From Candidatus Gastranaerophilales bacterium (GTDB lineage: Bacteria > Cyanobacteriota > Vampirovibrionia > Gastranaerophilales > Gastranaerophilaceae), in the NCBI GenBank assembly GCA_944325705.1, contig CALVBB010000014.1:1-56743 (forward strand): DNA of 56,743 nt, written 5' to 3'. The translations under genes were made by a program, and so were the position numbers. Below are positions 31,670-39,710 of this stretch, piece after piece. Below the pieces are notes generated by a model. The model did not search any database. It was not told the origin of the DNA and saw only the letters and a list, made by a program, of their open reading frames with translations. Position 1 is the stretch's first letter; each line of letters begins with the position of its first letter.

Positions 31670-32149
31670 GACGTTAAGTGCAACAATAAGTGAAGAGTTC
31701 TCTATTGCCTTCTCTCCTTGAGATACTAAGTGAACCGCTGAGCCTGCGAAGTGTGTGACCCTGTATGCCTTGTGCCTTCGCCCTCTCTCATTGTGAGAGG
31801 GCAGAATTACTTAATGAACGAAGTGAATTTAGTAATTCGGGTGAGGGTAAACCCTCCGGTGGTGCGCACCACCTCCCTTAAAAATGGAGGTTGGCCAATG
31901 GTAGGTAAGATTTACTAATCCGACCTGCTTTTTATAAACCCTTCAACTATTCACCTGTTCAACTTTATTGGGCAGGTATGCCCGACTGACATTGCCTTTT
32001 ATTGCACTCAACGTCCTAACGTATTAACTTCTTTCCCATAATGTAAACATTTATTTACAAAACCCGGTATAAATTAAAGTTTTATGCGCATAGTGCCGTC
32101 ATAGAATGTGTATCAAAGTATGATATAAGAAAGGAAAAAGCTTTAAGGT
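31670..32149. other. 480-base gap with mosaic repeat fragments
   Basis: No convincing gene. It holds a perfect hairpin GCCCTCTC / GAGAGGGC (31780-31802), a repeat unit at 31849-31906 found inverted at 36536-36594, the 16-base motif GATTTACTAATCCGAC (31909-31924, also at 53348-53363), and an inverted relative of the module starting GTCGGGCATACC at 33964. The last 80 bases probably carry the promoter of the next gene. Confidence 0.7.
31849..31906. repeat. Dispersed intergenic repeat unit, copy 1
   Basis: It matches the reverse complement of 36536-36594, sharing AACCCTCCGG, CTTAAAAATGGAGGTT and GCCAATGGTAGGT. The sequence between the shared blocks differs. Confidence 0.75.
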
Positions 32150-33963: not shown

Positions 33964-34140
33964 GTCGGGCATACCAGCCCGACAAAGTTGAACGGGTGAA
34001 AAGTTGAATGGGTGAATGGTTTATCATTAAATATGTCATTCTGAAAAGTCAATCGTTGCAGATTATATGAGATATGACTGCTCAGAATCTCTTTTAGTAA
34101 CATTAGTATTAGTTTTCGAAACGATAGCGTGAGCAGGGCG
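33964..34140. repeat. Dispersed intergenic repeat, copy A (177 bases)
   Basis: It matches 36336-36496 over its whole length with four substitutions and one 16-base insertion, which is a tandem duplication-like CGGGTGAAAAGTTGAA. It begins with the small palindrome GTCGGGCATACCAGCCCGAC. Confidence 0.9.
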
Positions 34141-34297: not shown

Positions 34298-35422
34298 ATG
34301 ATACCTATTTTAGATTCAAAACGTCAGTACGCCACAATCGGCGCAGAAGTTGAAAAAGCGGTCTGCGAAGTCCTCAGATCCGGTTCTTATATCCTCGGGC
34401 CAAACACAAAAGCTCTTGAAAAAGAACTCGCTGACTTTATCGGCTGTAAATATACTGTTGGACTTAATTCCGGTACTGACGCGCTTCATCTTGCTCTAAG
34501 AGCTCTTAATATAGGCGCTGGCGATGAAGTTATTACCGTTGCATTTACTTTTGTCGCAACTACTGAAGCTATCGGAATTGTCGGCGCAAAACCTGTTTTT
34601 GTTGATATTGATGCAGATACTTTCAACATGGATGCTTCAAAGCTTGAAGCTGCCATTACTCCGCGTACAAAAGCGATTATTCCTGTTCACCTCTACGGAC
34701 AGCCTTGCGATATGGATACAATTATGACTGTTGCGAAAAAGCATAACCTTCACGTTATTGAGGACTGCTGTCAGGCAATCGGTGCCCTTTATAAAGGCAA
34801 AATGGTCGGAACTTTTGGCGAGTTTGGCTGTCTGAGCTTCTATCCGACTAAAAACCTCGGCGGCATGGGTGATGGCGGACTTATTATGACTAACGATGAA
34901 AAACTCCGCGACAGAGTTGTTGCTCTCAGAAACCACGGCGGTGCCATTCGTTATCATCATGACGAAATCGGTGTTAACAGCAGACTGGATGAAATTCAGG
35001 CAGCAATCCTCCGCGTTAAGCTTCCTCATGTAAAAGAATGGAACGAAAAACGCCGCGAACACGCTTACTATTACAATAAACTTTTCGCAGACTGCGCTGA
35101 TATTCAAACTCCGAAAGAACTTAAAGACACTTACTGTGTTTACCACCAGTACACTGTAAAAATTCCTAACCGCGATGAGGTTCATAAAATGCTTCAGGAA
35201 AACGGTATAGGTGCAATGCTTTATTATCCTATCCCGCTTCACCTGCAGAAGGTTCATGAATACCTCGGCGTTGGCAAAGGCTCGCTGCCGGTAACCGAAA
35301 AAAATACAGAACTCGTGGTTTCACTCCCTATGTTCCCTGAGATTACCGAAGAAGAACAGAGGACAGTTGCAAAAACTCTGATTGACTGTATTGAAAAATC
35401 TAAATCGCTTGTTAAAGCTTAA
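34298..35422 (+). CDS. DegT/DnrJ/EryC1/StrS-family PLP aminotransferase
   Basis: 374 residues from ATG 34298 (AAGGAG); GTG 34253 precedes the ribosome binding site. The fold-type I sugar aminotransferase signature is complete: SGSYILGPNTKALEKELA, GLNSGTDALHLAL, PVHLYGQPCDMD, EDCCQAIGALYKG and the PLP-binding lysine in FYPTKNLGG. The family aminates nucleotide-linked keto-sugars for O-antigen, capsule or glycoprotein glycans. The sugar cannot be named, and no sugar-nucleotide genes are adjacent. It probably feeds cell-surface glycans made by the glycosyltransferases elsewhere in the window. Confidence 0.92.
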   Translation: MIPILDSKRQYATIGAEVEKAVCEVLRSGSYILGPNTKALEKELADFIGCKYTVGLNSGTDALHLALRALNIGAGDEVITVAFTFVATTEAIGIVGAKPVFVDIDADTFNMDASKLEAAITPRTKAIIPVHLYGQPCDMDTIMTVAKKHNLHVIEDCCQAIGALYKGKMVGTFGEFGCLSFYPTKNLGGMGDGGLIMTNDEKLRDRVVALRNHGGAIRYHHDEIGVNSRLDEIQAAILRVKLPHVKEWNEKRREHAYYYNKLFADCADIQTPKELKDTYCVYHQYTVKIPNRDEVHKMLQENGIGAMLYYPIPLHLQKVHEYLGVGKGSLPVTEKNTELVVSLPMFPEITEEEQRTVAKTLIDCIEKSKSLVKA

Positions 35423-35441
35423 ACCTCACTATTAAAATACT

Positions 35442-35475
35442 AAACAGCCTCTGTAATATACAGAGGCTGTTTTTT
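35442..35475. terminator. Bidirectional terminator
   Basis: Stem AACAGCCTCTGT / ACAGAGGCTGTT with a five-base loop and a T-run on the plus strand. It separates the aminotransferase from the convergent 114-residue gene. Confidence 0.85.
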
Positions 35476-35482
35476 ATATCTA

Positions 35483-35827
35483 TTATCCTGCAAGGTTTAA
35501 ATTATGCCCTGCACTCATTTGCTGTTCCCATGTTCCGTTAAGATGGGTTCCTCTCATCGGATCAAGACCAGTTACATTGTACCACCCCATAGATGTAAAG
35601 GCGTCTTTTAATGAAAATCCCATTGTGATAGAGCCGAACTGTGCATCATAAGGTGTCGCCGTTGCCTGTGTTTGCGTTGTCCTTCCTGGCGTAAGCGGAT
35701 TTGTCGCAGGATCCTGAATTCGTGTACCGCTCTCTGCTGCTGCAGCAGAATAGCTTGCTATTGCTTCTGACGCCTCGCTTTTCGGTGCGCCAACCGCATT
35801 AATCCTCATGTTATCGTTTGGATTCAT
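35483..35827 (-). CDS. Hypothetical 114-residue Ala/Thr-rich protein
   Basis: Not recognised. The start at 35827 has AAAGG and AAAAAGG upstream. The first 60 residues are low-complexity (Ala, Thr, Ser, Gln; SYSAAAAESG), and the second half contains FGSITMGFSLKDAFTSMGWYN and ends AGHNLNLAG. There is no signal peptide or membrane segment. It shares a terminator with the aminotransferase gene. Confidence 0.55.
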   Translation of the reverse strand: MNPNDNMRINAVGAPKSEASEAIASYSAAAAESGTRIQDPATNPLTPGRTTQTQATATPYDAQFGSITMGFSLKDAFTSMGWYNVTGLDPMRGTHLNGTWEQQMSAGHNLNLAG

Positions 35828-35999
35828 GATATATGCCTTTTTCCTTTATACTCTTATATATATAAAGTATATACTCTTGAGAAAATTGCTAATTAAAGCC
35901 AGGGGTAGTTTACATTTATTAACAAAAATATGTAAATCTTACTTTTGTTAATAACATACCCAAAATAATGTAATAATAACGCAATATTAAGTTTTGTAA

Positions 36000-36016
36000 A
36001 GTGTAAAATCTACACT
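36000..36016. repeat. Inverted motif AGTGT-N7-ACACT, first copy
   Basis: AGTGTAAAATCTACACT. The same AGTGT-N7-ACACT form recurs at 36109-36125, on the other side of the promoter at 36064-36092. Confidence 0.6.
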
Positions 36017-36063
36017 ATATTGCGGATTTTCAAGAATTTTATAAAATTTATCTGATTATTTAG

Positions 36064-36092
36064 TTGACATTTAAAATGTTATGTGTAATAAT
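36064..36092 (+). promoter_or_regulatory. Strong promoter in front of the small-RNA candidate
   Basis: Perfect TTGACA (36064-36069), 17-base spacer ending in TGT, AATAAT (36087-36092); with a 16-base spacer the box reads TAATAA. No protein gene follows. Confidence 0.65.
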
Positions 36093-36098
36093 AAGTAC

Positions 36099-36238
36099 AT
36101 AAGATTTAAGTGTAGTCGAAACACTAAATATAAATAGATTCATTAACCCCAAAAACATATAAACTCCTAAATAATAAACACTAAAAGAGACCATTAGGAT
36201 GCAGAAAACGACCCACTCAGAAATGAGTGGTTTTTTTT
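36099..36238 (+). ncRNA. Candidate small RNA of about 140 nucleotides
   Basis: Bounded by the promoter at 36064-36092 and a perfect terminator at 36213-36238. The 5' end can form a hairpin AGTGT / ACACT (36109-36125); the middle is A-rich and probably unstructured. The only start codon of note gives a 15-codon reading frame running into the terminator, without a good ribosome binding site. I see no match to 6S RNA, SRP RNA, tmRNA or RNase P features. Confidence 0.5.
36213..36238 (+). terminator. Intrinsic terminator with GAAA tetraloop
   Basis: Seven-base stem CCACTCA / TGAGTGG closed by a GAAA loop and followed by eight T. The nearest upstream plus-strand gene ends at 35422 and already has its own terminator. 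Confidence 0.85.
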
Positions 36239-36335
36239 ACGTCTAATCGGGATATTCCCTGTGTGCCTCCAGCGGGTGGTAAAAACTCTGATTACGTGTA
36301 GTTTGTACAATTTATATTGAAGGAGATGGGGCTTT

Positions 36336-36496
36336 GTCGGGCATACCAGCCCGACAAAGTTGAATGGGTGAATGGCTTATCATTAAATATGTCATTCTGA
36401 AACGTCAATCATTGCAGATTATATGAGATATGACTGTTCAGAATCTCTTTTAGTAACATTAGTATTAGTTTTCGAAACGATAGCGTGAGCAGGGCG
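36336..36496. repeat. Dispersed intergenic repeat, copy B (161 bases)
   Basis: Same sequence as 33964-34140 apart from four substitutions and a missing 16-base block. It stops after GAGCAGGGCG and lacks the second arm of palindrome P1. Confidence 0.9.
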
Positions 36497-36535
36497 AAAG
36501 TTTTATTATTGGGCTGAAAGCCAAACCTACTAACG

Positions 36536-36594
36536 ACCTACCATTGGCTAACCTCCATTTTTAAGGAAGGTGGCACGGATGTGCCGGAGGGTTT
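36536..36594. repeat. Dispersed intergenic repeat unit, inverted copy 2
   Basis: Reverse complement of the unit at 31849-31906. Confidence 0.75.
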
Positions 36595-36703
36595 TGTTAA
36601 ACCAATCAACACTTCAACCATTTACCCGTTCAACTTTATCGCCCCCTTCCTCGCCTGCGGCACCCTCCCCCGCATGGGGAGGTCAATATTTACACTTCAC
36701 TCC

Positions 36704-37303
36704 TCACCCCTCACTTTTTTTAATAATAACCAGATTCCTTGTGTGGTTTTCCTCGAGCGGCAACTCATATTTAATAATATCAACAATTCCGGCATTGCAT
36801 TTTTTTAGAGTTTTTTGCGCCTCTTTTATTTCGTCCTGAACTTTAATAGATTTATATGCAATGAAATATCCGTCTTTTTTCATTTTTGGAACTGCATATT
36901 GAATAATCTTATCAAGAGAGGCTACAGCCCTTGTTGTTACTATATCAAACCGGCCGTCAAAGCTTTCTACCCGCGAGCATACAGGAGTAAGGTTTTTAAT
37001 GTTAAGCGCCTCTTTAATTGAGGTTACTGCATTAATTTTTTTTCTTATGCTGTCAAGTGCCGTAACTGAAATCTCCGGATAAGCAAGCGCCACCGGCACA
37101 GATGGAAATCCTCCGCCTGTTCCGAAATCCAGCAGGGTTTTAAAATCCCTGCCGTATTTTTCAAAGAAGTTCTCTATGGCAAGGCTGTCACAGATATGTT
37201 TTTCCCATAAAAAACGTTCATCGTTTTTTGAAATAAGGTTAAGTTTGGCGTTCTGTTCTAAAAAAACTTTTATATAATCCTGATAAAATTCTTTAGTTTT
37301 CAT
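36704..37303 (-). CDS. rsmG: 16S rRNA (guanine527-N7)-methyltransferase
   Basis: 199 residues, typical length. The SAM-binding motif LLDFGTGGGFPSVPVALAYP, the following ALDSIRKKI, TTRAVASLDKI and the terminal NLVIIKK are characteristic. It methylates G527 in the 530 loop of 16S rRNA. It overlaps the upstream ATPase-TPR gene by 11 bases, so the two are cotranscribed. Confidence 0.93.
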   Translation of the reverse strand: MKTKEFYQDYIKVFLEQNAKLNLISKNDERFLWEKHICDSLAIENFFEKYGRDFKTLLDFGTGGGFPSVPVALAYPEISVTALDSIRKKINAVTSIKEALNIKNLTPVCSRVESFDGRFDIVTTRAVASLDKIIQYAVPKMKKDGYFIAYKSIKVQDEIKEAQKTLKKCNAGIVDIIKYELPLEENHTRNLVIIKKSEG

Positions 37304-39710
37304 TTAAAATCTCTTTTTCAAGTTCGTTGTATTTGCTGCCCAGACGTATTTTTATATCGCTAATTCTCTGTTCGATTTTTGCTATATTGTCCGGTGTGAA
37401 GTTGTTCTGTGCTGATTTTAGCGCTGACAGGTAATTTTTCAACGCGAATTTAATCTTTCTGTGGTTGTTGTAAAAATCGCCGAGTTCTGTGTAGGCTGAT
37501 GTAAGATAAAAAACTTCATTCAGTGCACCGGCGCTTTTTATTGCTTTCTGATAATACTCAACAGTCTTTTCAGGGGATTTATTCCTGTTAAGTTCTGCAA
37601 GCTTCATTGAAGAAATGTAGATACCGTTATAATTTTTGTCTGCCTCGTCAATTTTAAGGCTTTCTGTGTAATATTTCTGTGCAAGTTCCGGCATATCGGT
37701 TTCATCAAATATGGCTGCAAGATTTGACATGGCAGATGACAGATGCGGATTATTTTTGTCTATATCAATACATTTTTTGTAATAGATTACCGCGGTTTCG
37801 GTTTCGTCAAGGTCATCGCAGCAGACTGCAAATTTGAAGTATAGTTCTGTAAGAAGTTTTTTGTCCGTAAGCGGTTCAACAAGTTCCAGTGCTGTTCTGT
37901 AGCACATGTATGCTGTTCTTATATCTTCATTGCAGATTGCTGCCATTGCAATATTTGCTTTTATTCTTATTTCATTTGAAATATTCGAAGTTTCAAGAAC
38001 TTCTTTAATGAGCTCTTTTGCTTTGTCGTGTTTGAAGGTTATGTAGAAAATCTCCGCAATCTCAAGTTTCATTTCATTAATTTTTTCAATATCGCTTGCC
38101 GAGGTGTAAAATTCAAGCGCAAGATCGTAGTATCTCAGAGCGTTAAACCAGTCGGAGAGTTTGCGGTAATTCTGCGCCAGTTTTGTATAGACTGACGGCA
38201 GGAATGTGTAAAAGTCGTCATCATCTTTGCATAGAAGCGCCCTCTGGCAGTATGCAATTGCTTTTTTGTAGTTGTAGTCATTTTCTGCGTTTCTGGCAGC
38301 GTTAATCAGGCCTGCGAGAGAGAGCCTGTCATCCTCAGGGGTAAGGGTTTTGTTTGAATAGTCAATAAATTTATTTATGGAATTTGCGATTTCTGTCATA
38401 ACCTTTTGTTCATCTTCCTCTGAATCAAATATAAAGGTTATATTTTTAATTTTTTCTTCCTTATCCGGTTCTTGAGGGTTTTGCAGGCTGTCCGGTGTTT
38501 GCTTTGCGGAAGAAACAGTTTCTGGCTGCAGGGGACTGGCCTCCTGTTGTATATCCGGCCGGAACGCGGGTTTCTGCGGTATAAACATACTGTGATATTC
38601 AATTTCCGAGCGCATTGTCTGTCGGGAAATGAGTAAATCCCTTTCAAAAGGTTTTAGCGGAAGCTGGGTGTTATACAGATCAACGCAGGCTTTATGAAGT
38701 TTTATCGCAACAGCTTCGGAAATTGAATTTTGCGAGATTTCTTTGAAGTAATCCTGCAGGTAAATCATATTTTTTTCAGGTGAAATTATTTCGTTTGCAA
38801 GAAAATATCTTATGCGCTCTTCATTATATAACCCGATTGTCATAAGGAGTCTGAGACTTACAGGATGGCGCATTATTGTCAGAAACCTGAAAAGGTGACC
38901 GCTTACCGGATCCACAAATGACATTGCCTCTCTTAAAATAAAATCGTTATACGATAGAAAGCTCTTTGTGTAGCCTTTCAGAAAATCAATCAGGCTTAAG
39001 CCGCGTGCATTTATGACTTTAGTTGTCAGGTCTGTATAAAAGAAATACCCACGTGAATACCGGTATAATTCGTCTGATACAGGCCCGATAAGCTTTATAC
39101 CTCTTTCTCTTAAGAATTTTTCAAAAATAGATTTGTCCAGTGCGAGAATTGAAATTCTATCATAAGAAATTTTGCCCTCAAAGTCATCATAGGAAAATAC
39201 CCGCCCGATAAGGATTATTTTTATGTTTTTTCTTGATGAAAGATGGAAAATAAAATCCAGAATTTCCTGCCTGTTATTTTTTAAAACTGCTTCAAAAGAA
39301 TTAATTATTACAACAACAGGATTTTCTAAAGCATCAAAGTAAGCTTCAACCCTCTGTGTGAAGTTTTGGTATTTTGCGCGCGGCTGCTTTATCAGATTTT
39401 GCACCGCAAGATTTTTGAAATCTTCAAAAAATGAAAGCAGAATGTCATCAAGAATAGTTGTTTCAAAGCAGTTATATCTTAGAACAACTGTCTGCGGGCT
39501 GAAAAATTTTGTCACATGGTCAACAACTCTGGTCTTTCCTGTTCCTAAAAAGCCGTTTACCAGCATAAGCTTTGAGTCATTATGGAAAAATTTTACTAAA
39601 TCATTTATCTGATTGGTATTATTTTCCAGTAAATACTGGTTGATGCCGCTTACGGTATTTTTATGAAAATCTTTGATGTCTATTCCGCTTTCCAGAAAAT
39701 CTGTACTCAT
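37293..39710 (-). CDS. P-loop ATPase with C-terminal TPR array (STAND-like)
   Basis: 805 residues from ATG 39710. An N-terminal NTPase domain has Walker A GFLGTGKT (53-60) and a Walker-B-like strand VVVIINSFE that lacks the usual second acidic residue. A winged-helix-like middle (about 190-380) and a low-complexity Pro/Gln linker (about 395-430) follow. From about 460 to the end there are eight or so TPR-type helical pairs (KAIAYCQRALL, NALRYYDLALEFY, TAVIYYKKCIDID). This architecture is that of STAND-class regulators. No effector domain is recognisable, and its partner gene is rsmG, so a defence role is not supported. Confidence 0.75.
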   Translation of the reverse strand: MSTDFLESGIDIKDFHKNTVSGINQYLLENNTNQINDLVKFFHNDSKLMLVNGFLGTGKTRVVDHVTKFFSPQTVVLRYNCFETTILDDILLSFFEDFKNLAVQNLIKQPRAKYQNFTQRVEAYFDALENPVVVIINSFEAVLKNNRQEILDFIFHLSSRKNIKIILIGRVFSYDDFEGKISYDRISILALDKSIFEKFLRERGIKLIGPVSDELYRYSRGYFFYTDLTTKVINARGLSLIDFLKGYTKSFLSYNDFILREAMSFVDPVSGHLFRFLTIMRHPVSLRLLMTIGLYNEERIRYFLANEIISPEKNMIYLQDYFKEISQNSISEAVAIKLHKACVDLYNTQLPLKPFERDLLISRQTMRSEIEYHSMFIPQKPAFRPDIQQEASPLQPETVSSAKQTPDSLQNPQEPDKEEKIKNITFIFDSEEDEQKVMTEIANSINKFIDYSNKTLTPEDDRLSLAGLINAARNAENDYNYKKAIAYCQRALLCKDDDDFYTFLPSVYTKLAQNYRKLSDWFNALRYYDLALEFYTSASDIEKINEMKLEIAEIFYITFKHDKAKELIKEVLETSNISNEIRIKANIAMAAICNEDIRTAYMCYRTALELVEPLTDKKLLTELYFKFAVCCDDLDETETAVIYYKKCIDIDKNNPHLSSAMSNLAAIFDETDMPELAQKYYTESLKIDEADKNYNGIYISSMKLAELNRNKSPEKTVEYYQKAIKSAGALNEVFYLTSAYTELGDFYNNHRKIKFALKNYLSALKSAQNNFTPDNIAKIEQRISDIKIRLGSKYNELEKEILNEN

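Follow-up and report, generated by a model that had tools for sequence, protein, structure and literature searches.

The Gastranaerophilales live in the gut, are for the most part uncultured, and are related to the cyanobacteria. In bacteria, intergenic small RNAs (sRNAs) that act in trans form an established class, transcribed from a sigma-70-type promoter and ended by an intrinsic terminator. Among cyanobacteria, Yfr1 offers the nearest comparison: one description gives a length of 54–69 nt and an invariant ACUCCUCACAC within 16–20 unpaired nt between two stem-loops (PMC2190773), and another study (PMC6778093) reports that, in footprinting assays, binding to the ppa mRNA was lost when UCCU was changed. 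A literature search that took in a minority of subscription papers returned no description of the RNA reported here, nor of small RNAs of the Gastranaerophilales. What is new is the RNA family itself, which is absent from Rfam; its kind, the independent bacterial sRNA, is already known.

The RNA gene lies within a stretch of 56,743 nucleotides (the window, meaning the whole of the DNA analysed), in which the original prediction had taken an isolated promoter followed by a terminator to be an independent small RNA. Both signals were confirmed. The promoter, TTGACA-17-AATAAT with an extended -10 (TG before the -10), was located by consensus scan on the plus strand at 36064–36092. It has 11 of 12 hexamer matches and is the top-scoring site across 35000–37500, as well as the sole one-mismatch site with the extended -10 pattern in the 56.7-kb window, where five sites with up to two mismatches were observed and 0.87 expected. 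The intrinsic terminator on the same strand (36213–36238), 121 bases past the -10, consists of a perfect 7-bp stem with a GAAA loop (CCACTCA-GAAA-TGAGTGG, 36213–36230) followed by eight T residues (36231–36238). Across the surrounding 2.5 kb (35000–37500), we counted 13 promoter-like sites with 7.8 expected and five terminator-like sites with 1.8 expected; either signal alone is therefore weak, and the case for a small RNA is made by conservation and not by consensus signals alone. Conservation, together with a start placed by promoter spacing, delimits a plus-strand gene at 36099–36238 with an inferred transcript of about 140 nt, whose predicted fold is unremarkable (z = -2.1).

The upstream gene had been credited with a terminator of its own, and this was borne out: a DegT-type aminotransferase gene ends at 35422, and its terminator lies at 35442–35472. 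The claim that no protein gene lies between the two signals also stood: in that interval the ORF list of the window has no entry reaching 50 aa. The further claim of no gene nearby was only roughly right, given a divergent 114-aa ORF on the minus strand (35483–35827), which is the closest ORF upstream, and rsmG, also on the minus strand (36704–37303) and beginning 466 bp beyond the T-run. The 114-aa ORF gave no Pfam match, and other loci likewise have small divergent ORFs, of differing kinds, at this position upstream of the small RNA. A 141-nt direct repeat, 97% identical (34000–34140 and 36356–36496), brackets the block formed by the DegT gene, the small ORF and the small RNA, and further related intergenic repeats were observed at 31869–31996 and 36536–36641.

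By DNA search, the unit was found in 12 of the 13 genomes of the genus, the exception (G008) being 99% complete, and in 148 of 191 genomes of the family at E ≤ 2.2e-11, with a credible copy in 33 of the 41 family genera by hand count. The tool's count at E ≤ 0.01 was 157 of 191 genomes and 39 of 41 genera; nine genomes at E 2.7e-4 to 0.01 were dropped as doubtful. Neither the DNA search nor covariance models gave a credible copy in the genomes searched from genera g3, g5, g21, g26, g36, g37, g39 and g40, and because these eight genera and G008 lack one, the RNA is not needed by all. The body was 99.3–100% identical in 19 compared loci from the genus and from other genera. In the same comparison, third codon positions of DegT and RsmG were 38–60% identical where computable, rising to 85–87% for L002, the closest genome; gapped alignments of the 180 bp upstream of the unit gave 63–79% identity. 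An unconserved unit whose terminator was shared with a lost gene would have contradicted the original prediction; what we observed is promoter, body and terminator kept together as one unit throughout the family and, in a reduced version, throughout the order, with downstream genes that change.

The unit is single-copy in most genomes. One genome (G186) carries two full copies on different contigs (L131, L132), and in another (G226, L390) the copy stops within the core, at ACCATTAG, the 3' part being absent from the 6 kb read, whether through a deletion or through a join made in assembly. In several genomes the RNA gene is cut by a contig end (L010, L011, L012 and L013, two of these contigs belonging to G006). 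Identical copies in co-occurring species may break assembly there, and the RNA may in this way explain such contig ends in several metagenome-assembled genomes.

Along the RNA, all on the plus strand, the 5' end carries the palindrome AGTGTAGTCGAAACACT (36109–36125), which can form a 5-bp hairpin. By fold and comparison, an unpaired linker includes CCCC (36147–36150), which varies between genera. Beyond it lie ACAUAUAAACUCCUAAAUAAUAAACAC (36155–36181), a stretch conserved in the family alignment and containing ACUCCU, the complement of the Shine-Dalgarno sequence AGGAGU, and then the unpaired order-wide core GAGACCAUUAGGAUGCAGAAA (36187–36207), which is looser in families f2–f4. A possible helix (36165–36199) is predicted between UCCUAA (36165–36170) and UUAGGA (36194–36199). 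Among 32 aligned family sequences this helix is nearly invariant, one pair being broken in two sequences; the terminator stem has compensatory changes at four of its six modelled pairs, the 5' hairpin has two-sided changes at one pair, and helices are few in the alignment as a whole.

A covariance search of related genomes, proposed as a check, uncovered the conserved plan in all seven families sampled in the order. Two models were used, one of the whole RNA (R1) and one of the 3' core (R2). At E ≤ 0.1, R1 matched 119 of the 146 genomes from the order, ten of them outside the family, and each of these ten copies, when read, contained a promoter, the AGTGT-N7-ACACT palindrome (exact or altered), an insert that varies, a core type and a terminator. 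R2 added G194, G195, G201 and G202 (f2, f3 and f4; E 8.0e-9 to 5.2e-6), and the promoter-core-terminator plan is common to the six other families. The core is of type GAAGAAGAGACCATTAGGATGCAG in f5, f6 and one f7 genome, and of a looser type, GAAGAAGAGAACATnAG..GCAGA, in f2, f3 and the other f7 genome. The stretch with ACUCCU is restricted to one family, being missing from all ten non-family R1 copies and from the other families read, and therefore cannot be the ancestral function.

In the class, R2 matched 133 of 240 genomes at E ≤ 0.1. Among these 240 genomes no credible match was found outside the order: four at E 0.006–0.06 were without the core when read, and these matches were rejected as chance. 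Also rejected, as having no credible core and terminator, were R1 matches in family genomes without a DNA match (L085–L087, three read of six listed) and 24 R2 matches read in such genomes; L362 partly resembles the core and was rejected because it lies at a gene start without a terminator. Exact GAGACCATTAGGATGCAG was found in at least 116 stretches in named genomes. Among the 80 matches listed, carriers with a group name were Candidatus Gastranaerophilales, Avigastranaerophilus, Melainabacteria, Cyanobacteria and one Heliobacteriaceae, and many carriers were labelled just 'bacterium'.

Two further elements were observed. In genus g21, which is without the RNA, L373 (1390–1535) holds the AT-rich core that is also seen in the leader of the divergent small ORF (see below) and, after it, DNA poor in ORFs with AACACGAA repeats and a terminator; this may be a further small RNA. 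Two f4 genomes (L366, 1490–1530; L382, 1488–1530) contain CCCC-loop-GGG(G) followed by AAGAAGAGATCATGAGGCAGAAT, an element that resembles the core, sits in long intergenic regions and gave no Rfam match on that strand.

The 5' palindrome is one of a pair. The other, AGTGTAAAATCTACACT (36000–36016, a perfect match), lies at about -97 to -99 of the predicted start and is a probable operator (O1); AGTGTAGTCGAAACACT would be a second operator (O2), the 5-bp hairpin, or both. AGTGT-N7-ACACT pairs spaced 107–109 bp were observed in 40 of 55 unique family copies (the set comprised copies spelled GA[G/A]ACC and the broken copy of G226, each having 250 bp or more of upstream sequence), and pairs at any spacing in 43; ten copies have the near palindrome alone and two have neither. 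By shuffling, about 0.01 pairs are expected by chance over all 55 copies together. In f2–f5 a palindrome copy overlaps the -35. Across the genus the pattern outnumbers its reversed control, with 16 versus 4 in the window genome for instance, though palindromic sites are counted on both strands. A two-site operator for a predicted regulator is probably the simplest reading of the pair, and the 5' hairpin may really be a DNA element; DNA looping between the palindromes is speculation.

AGTGT-N7-ACACT was also observed around the starts of other small-protein genes in the genus (L312–L323, L285, L287, L289), including those for a 113–131-aa 'MKINFKPQRL' protein and a 'MKINSI' protein, the latter preceded by a gene that is presumably nadC. 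It is possible that these genes form a small regulon with its own regulator. The leader of the small divergent ORF contains an AT-rich near-palindrome, TATACTTTATATATATAAGAGTATA (35847–35871, minus strand), whose core ATACTTTATATATATAAG was found in L316, L318, L319 and L321 and also precedes the 'MSGFDVNVLSTKP' gene adjoining the MKINFKPQRL locus.

With promoter, body and terminator conserved together and no Rfam family matched, the independent small RNA of the original prediction is supported, and we consider it very probable that the unit is a genuine sRNA gene and represents a new family in Candidatus Gastranaerophilales. It looks like a regulator of other genes. In our preferred account the RNA acts in trans, needs no Hfq, has its gene under operator control and works in the manner of Yfr1 without being a Yfr1. 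Transcription would be controlled by a regulator bound to both AGTGT-N7-ACACT palindromes (near -97 and +10); the RNA of about 140 nt would end at its own terminator, and its unpaired middle would be the part that acts in trans, with no need of Hfq. For the copies of this family, the stretch with ACUCCU could cover Shine-Dalgarno and start-codon regions, and the order-wide core GAGACCAUUAGGAUGCAGAAA would bind further RNA (or protein) partners.

Pairing was examined by duplex energies for 410 predicted genes, taken from the window and a further 400 kb of its genome (in all about 20% of that genome). The ACUCCU segment favoured ribosome-binding sites (RBS), with a mean energy of RBS minus coding of -2.23 kcal/mol versus -0.92 (sd 0.30) when shuffled, and 19 of 410 RBS at -12 or better versus 3 of 410 coding windows and 6.7 (sd 3.4) in shuffles. 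Because any anti-Shine-Dalgarno motif must show such a preference, this supports ability and not use. Neither the CCCC linker (-0.66 versus -0.52 in shuffles) nor the 5' hairpin had an RBS preference among the same 410 genes. The best candidate target is a gene for a 237-aa 'MPVNRVENT' protein, where a 13-nt perfect complement spans the Shine-Dalgarno sequence, spacer and AUG in the window genome and in one close genome (G012). Complements of the ACUCCU stretch (TTTAGGAGTTTATATG, up to two mismatches) were not in excess across the 13 genus genomes, with 40 non-self sites versus 73 for the reversed control.

A 23/24 complement was observed in the leader of one gene of genome G010, which we take to be DUF2971-like. 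This gene was rejected as a target, the complement being absent from the 28 other readable orthologue leaders of 30 fetched (one leader was not located), where the longest exact complement is 11 nt. The divergent small gene was likewise rejected as an antisense target, with duplex energies no better than shuffled at 15 loci (z -1.1 to +1.6; at two of these, L040 and L047, the start finder took another, longer ORF). Because these searches were negative or their results not conserved, the mechanism is one that we infer; and because the long-complement searches gave no excess and the G010 complement is not conserved, we place the trans-acting pairing RNA at about an even chance, or marginally better.

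The main rival, which we hold to be rather unlikely, is a protein-binding RNA, in which a conserved protein would recognise the core GAGACCAUUAGGAUGCAGAAA and be sequestered or delivered by the RNA. Several results are in keeping with it: the core is conserved across the order in sequence and not in helices, its complements are not in excess (67 versus 79 for the reversed control in 13 genomes), and it has no RBS preference among the 410 genes (1.65 versus 1.66 in shuffles). Nor was Hfq found to assist pairing, a search for PF17209 giving 0 of 21 genomes with 5 of 14 controls positive, a sensitivity at which a very divergent Hfq could be missed. However, no partner is known, the core varies in f2–f4, and a stretch such as the family-level ACUCCU would be expected of a pairing RNA. 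Decidedly unlikely, in our estimate, is a hub in which the core would bind one conserved order-wide partner and the ACUCCU arm of this family would target ribosome sites and be switched by pairing with UUAGGA of the core, with the gene under a two-operator DNA loop that has one operator inside the transcribed 5' end; such an RNA would be neither a short-seed antisense RNA nor a known protein sponge.

A housekeeping or ribonucleoprotein RNA, whether a divergent known RNA or a structural one, would suit the single copy in most genomes and the structural-RNA-like conservation among close genera, but we regard it as very improbable. In agreement with the expectation that the RNA would not resemble well-known housekeeping RNAs, Rfam 15 gave no family at gathering score for the unit, the 6S, SRP and tmRNA families included, and tRNAs alone in the window. 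At E 10 the unit had two sub-threshold chance matches, to a plant-virus pseudoknot and a microRNA model. RNase P (one copy) and three tRNAs were found elsewhere in the same genome, of which about 20% was scanned. The few helices, and the absence of the RNA from a near-complete genome of the same genus and from several genera, also argue against a housekeeping role.

That the DNA alone matters, with the palindrome pair as a region regulating the divergent small gene and all else passive, would agree with the high regularity of the palindromes and their recurrence at start regions of other small genes; it is highly improbable, since such a region would not conserve a 140-nt body and a terminator with compensatory stem changes. 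Scarcely credible, for all its leader-like size and terminator, is a tiny coding gene, or else a leader or attenuator whose downstream gene has been lost, as the 74 loci have no conserved same-strand gene downstream (rsmG, on the opposite strand, follows in 26) and coding potential was rejected on either strand, inspection of indels and start codons showing no conserved reading frame, linker indels that are not multiples of three and a core ATG that is absent in f3 and f4.

An order-wide RNA with a nearly invariant body provides a ready metatranscriptome probe and a marker for the order, and GACCATTAGGATGCAG is the probe stretch expected to work across the family. The small RNA is also a testable case for sRNA use in bacteria without a recognisable Hfq.

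Compared with the trans-acting sRNA class, the RNA has the likeness of an independent promoter and terminator, no ORF and an unpaired conserved segment; as in an independent sRNA gene, its own promoter and terminator are conserved with the body, and no reading frame is. It differs from the class in that nearly the whole body, and not a seed alone, is invariant among close genera, and in that Hfq, which an Hfq-dependent sRNA would have in its genome, was found in 0 of 21 genomes. Like Yfr1, it is a small intergenic RNA conserved over a large clade, with a 5' stem-loop, an unpaired ACUCCU and a 3' intrinsic terminator. Unlike Yfr1, it is about 140 nt long as against 54–69 nt, carries ACUCCUAAAUAAUAAACAC instead of ACUCCUCACAC, has ACUCCU in one family only, and has an order-wide core, GAGACCAUUAGGAUGCAGAAA, that is unrelated to the Yfr1 motif. 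We therefore rejected membership in Yfr1 on the motif and the length; by analogy, the copies of this family may still work like Yfr1.
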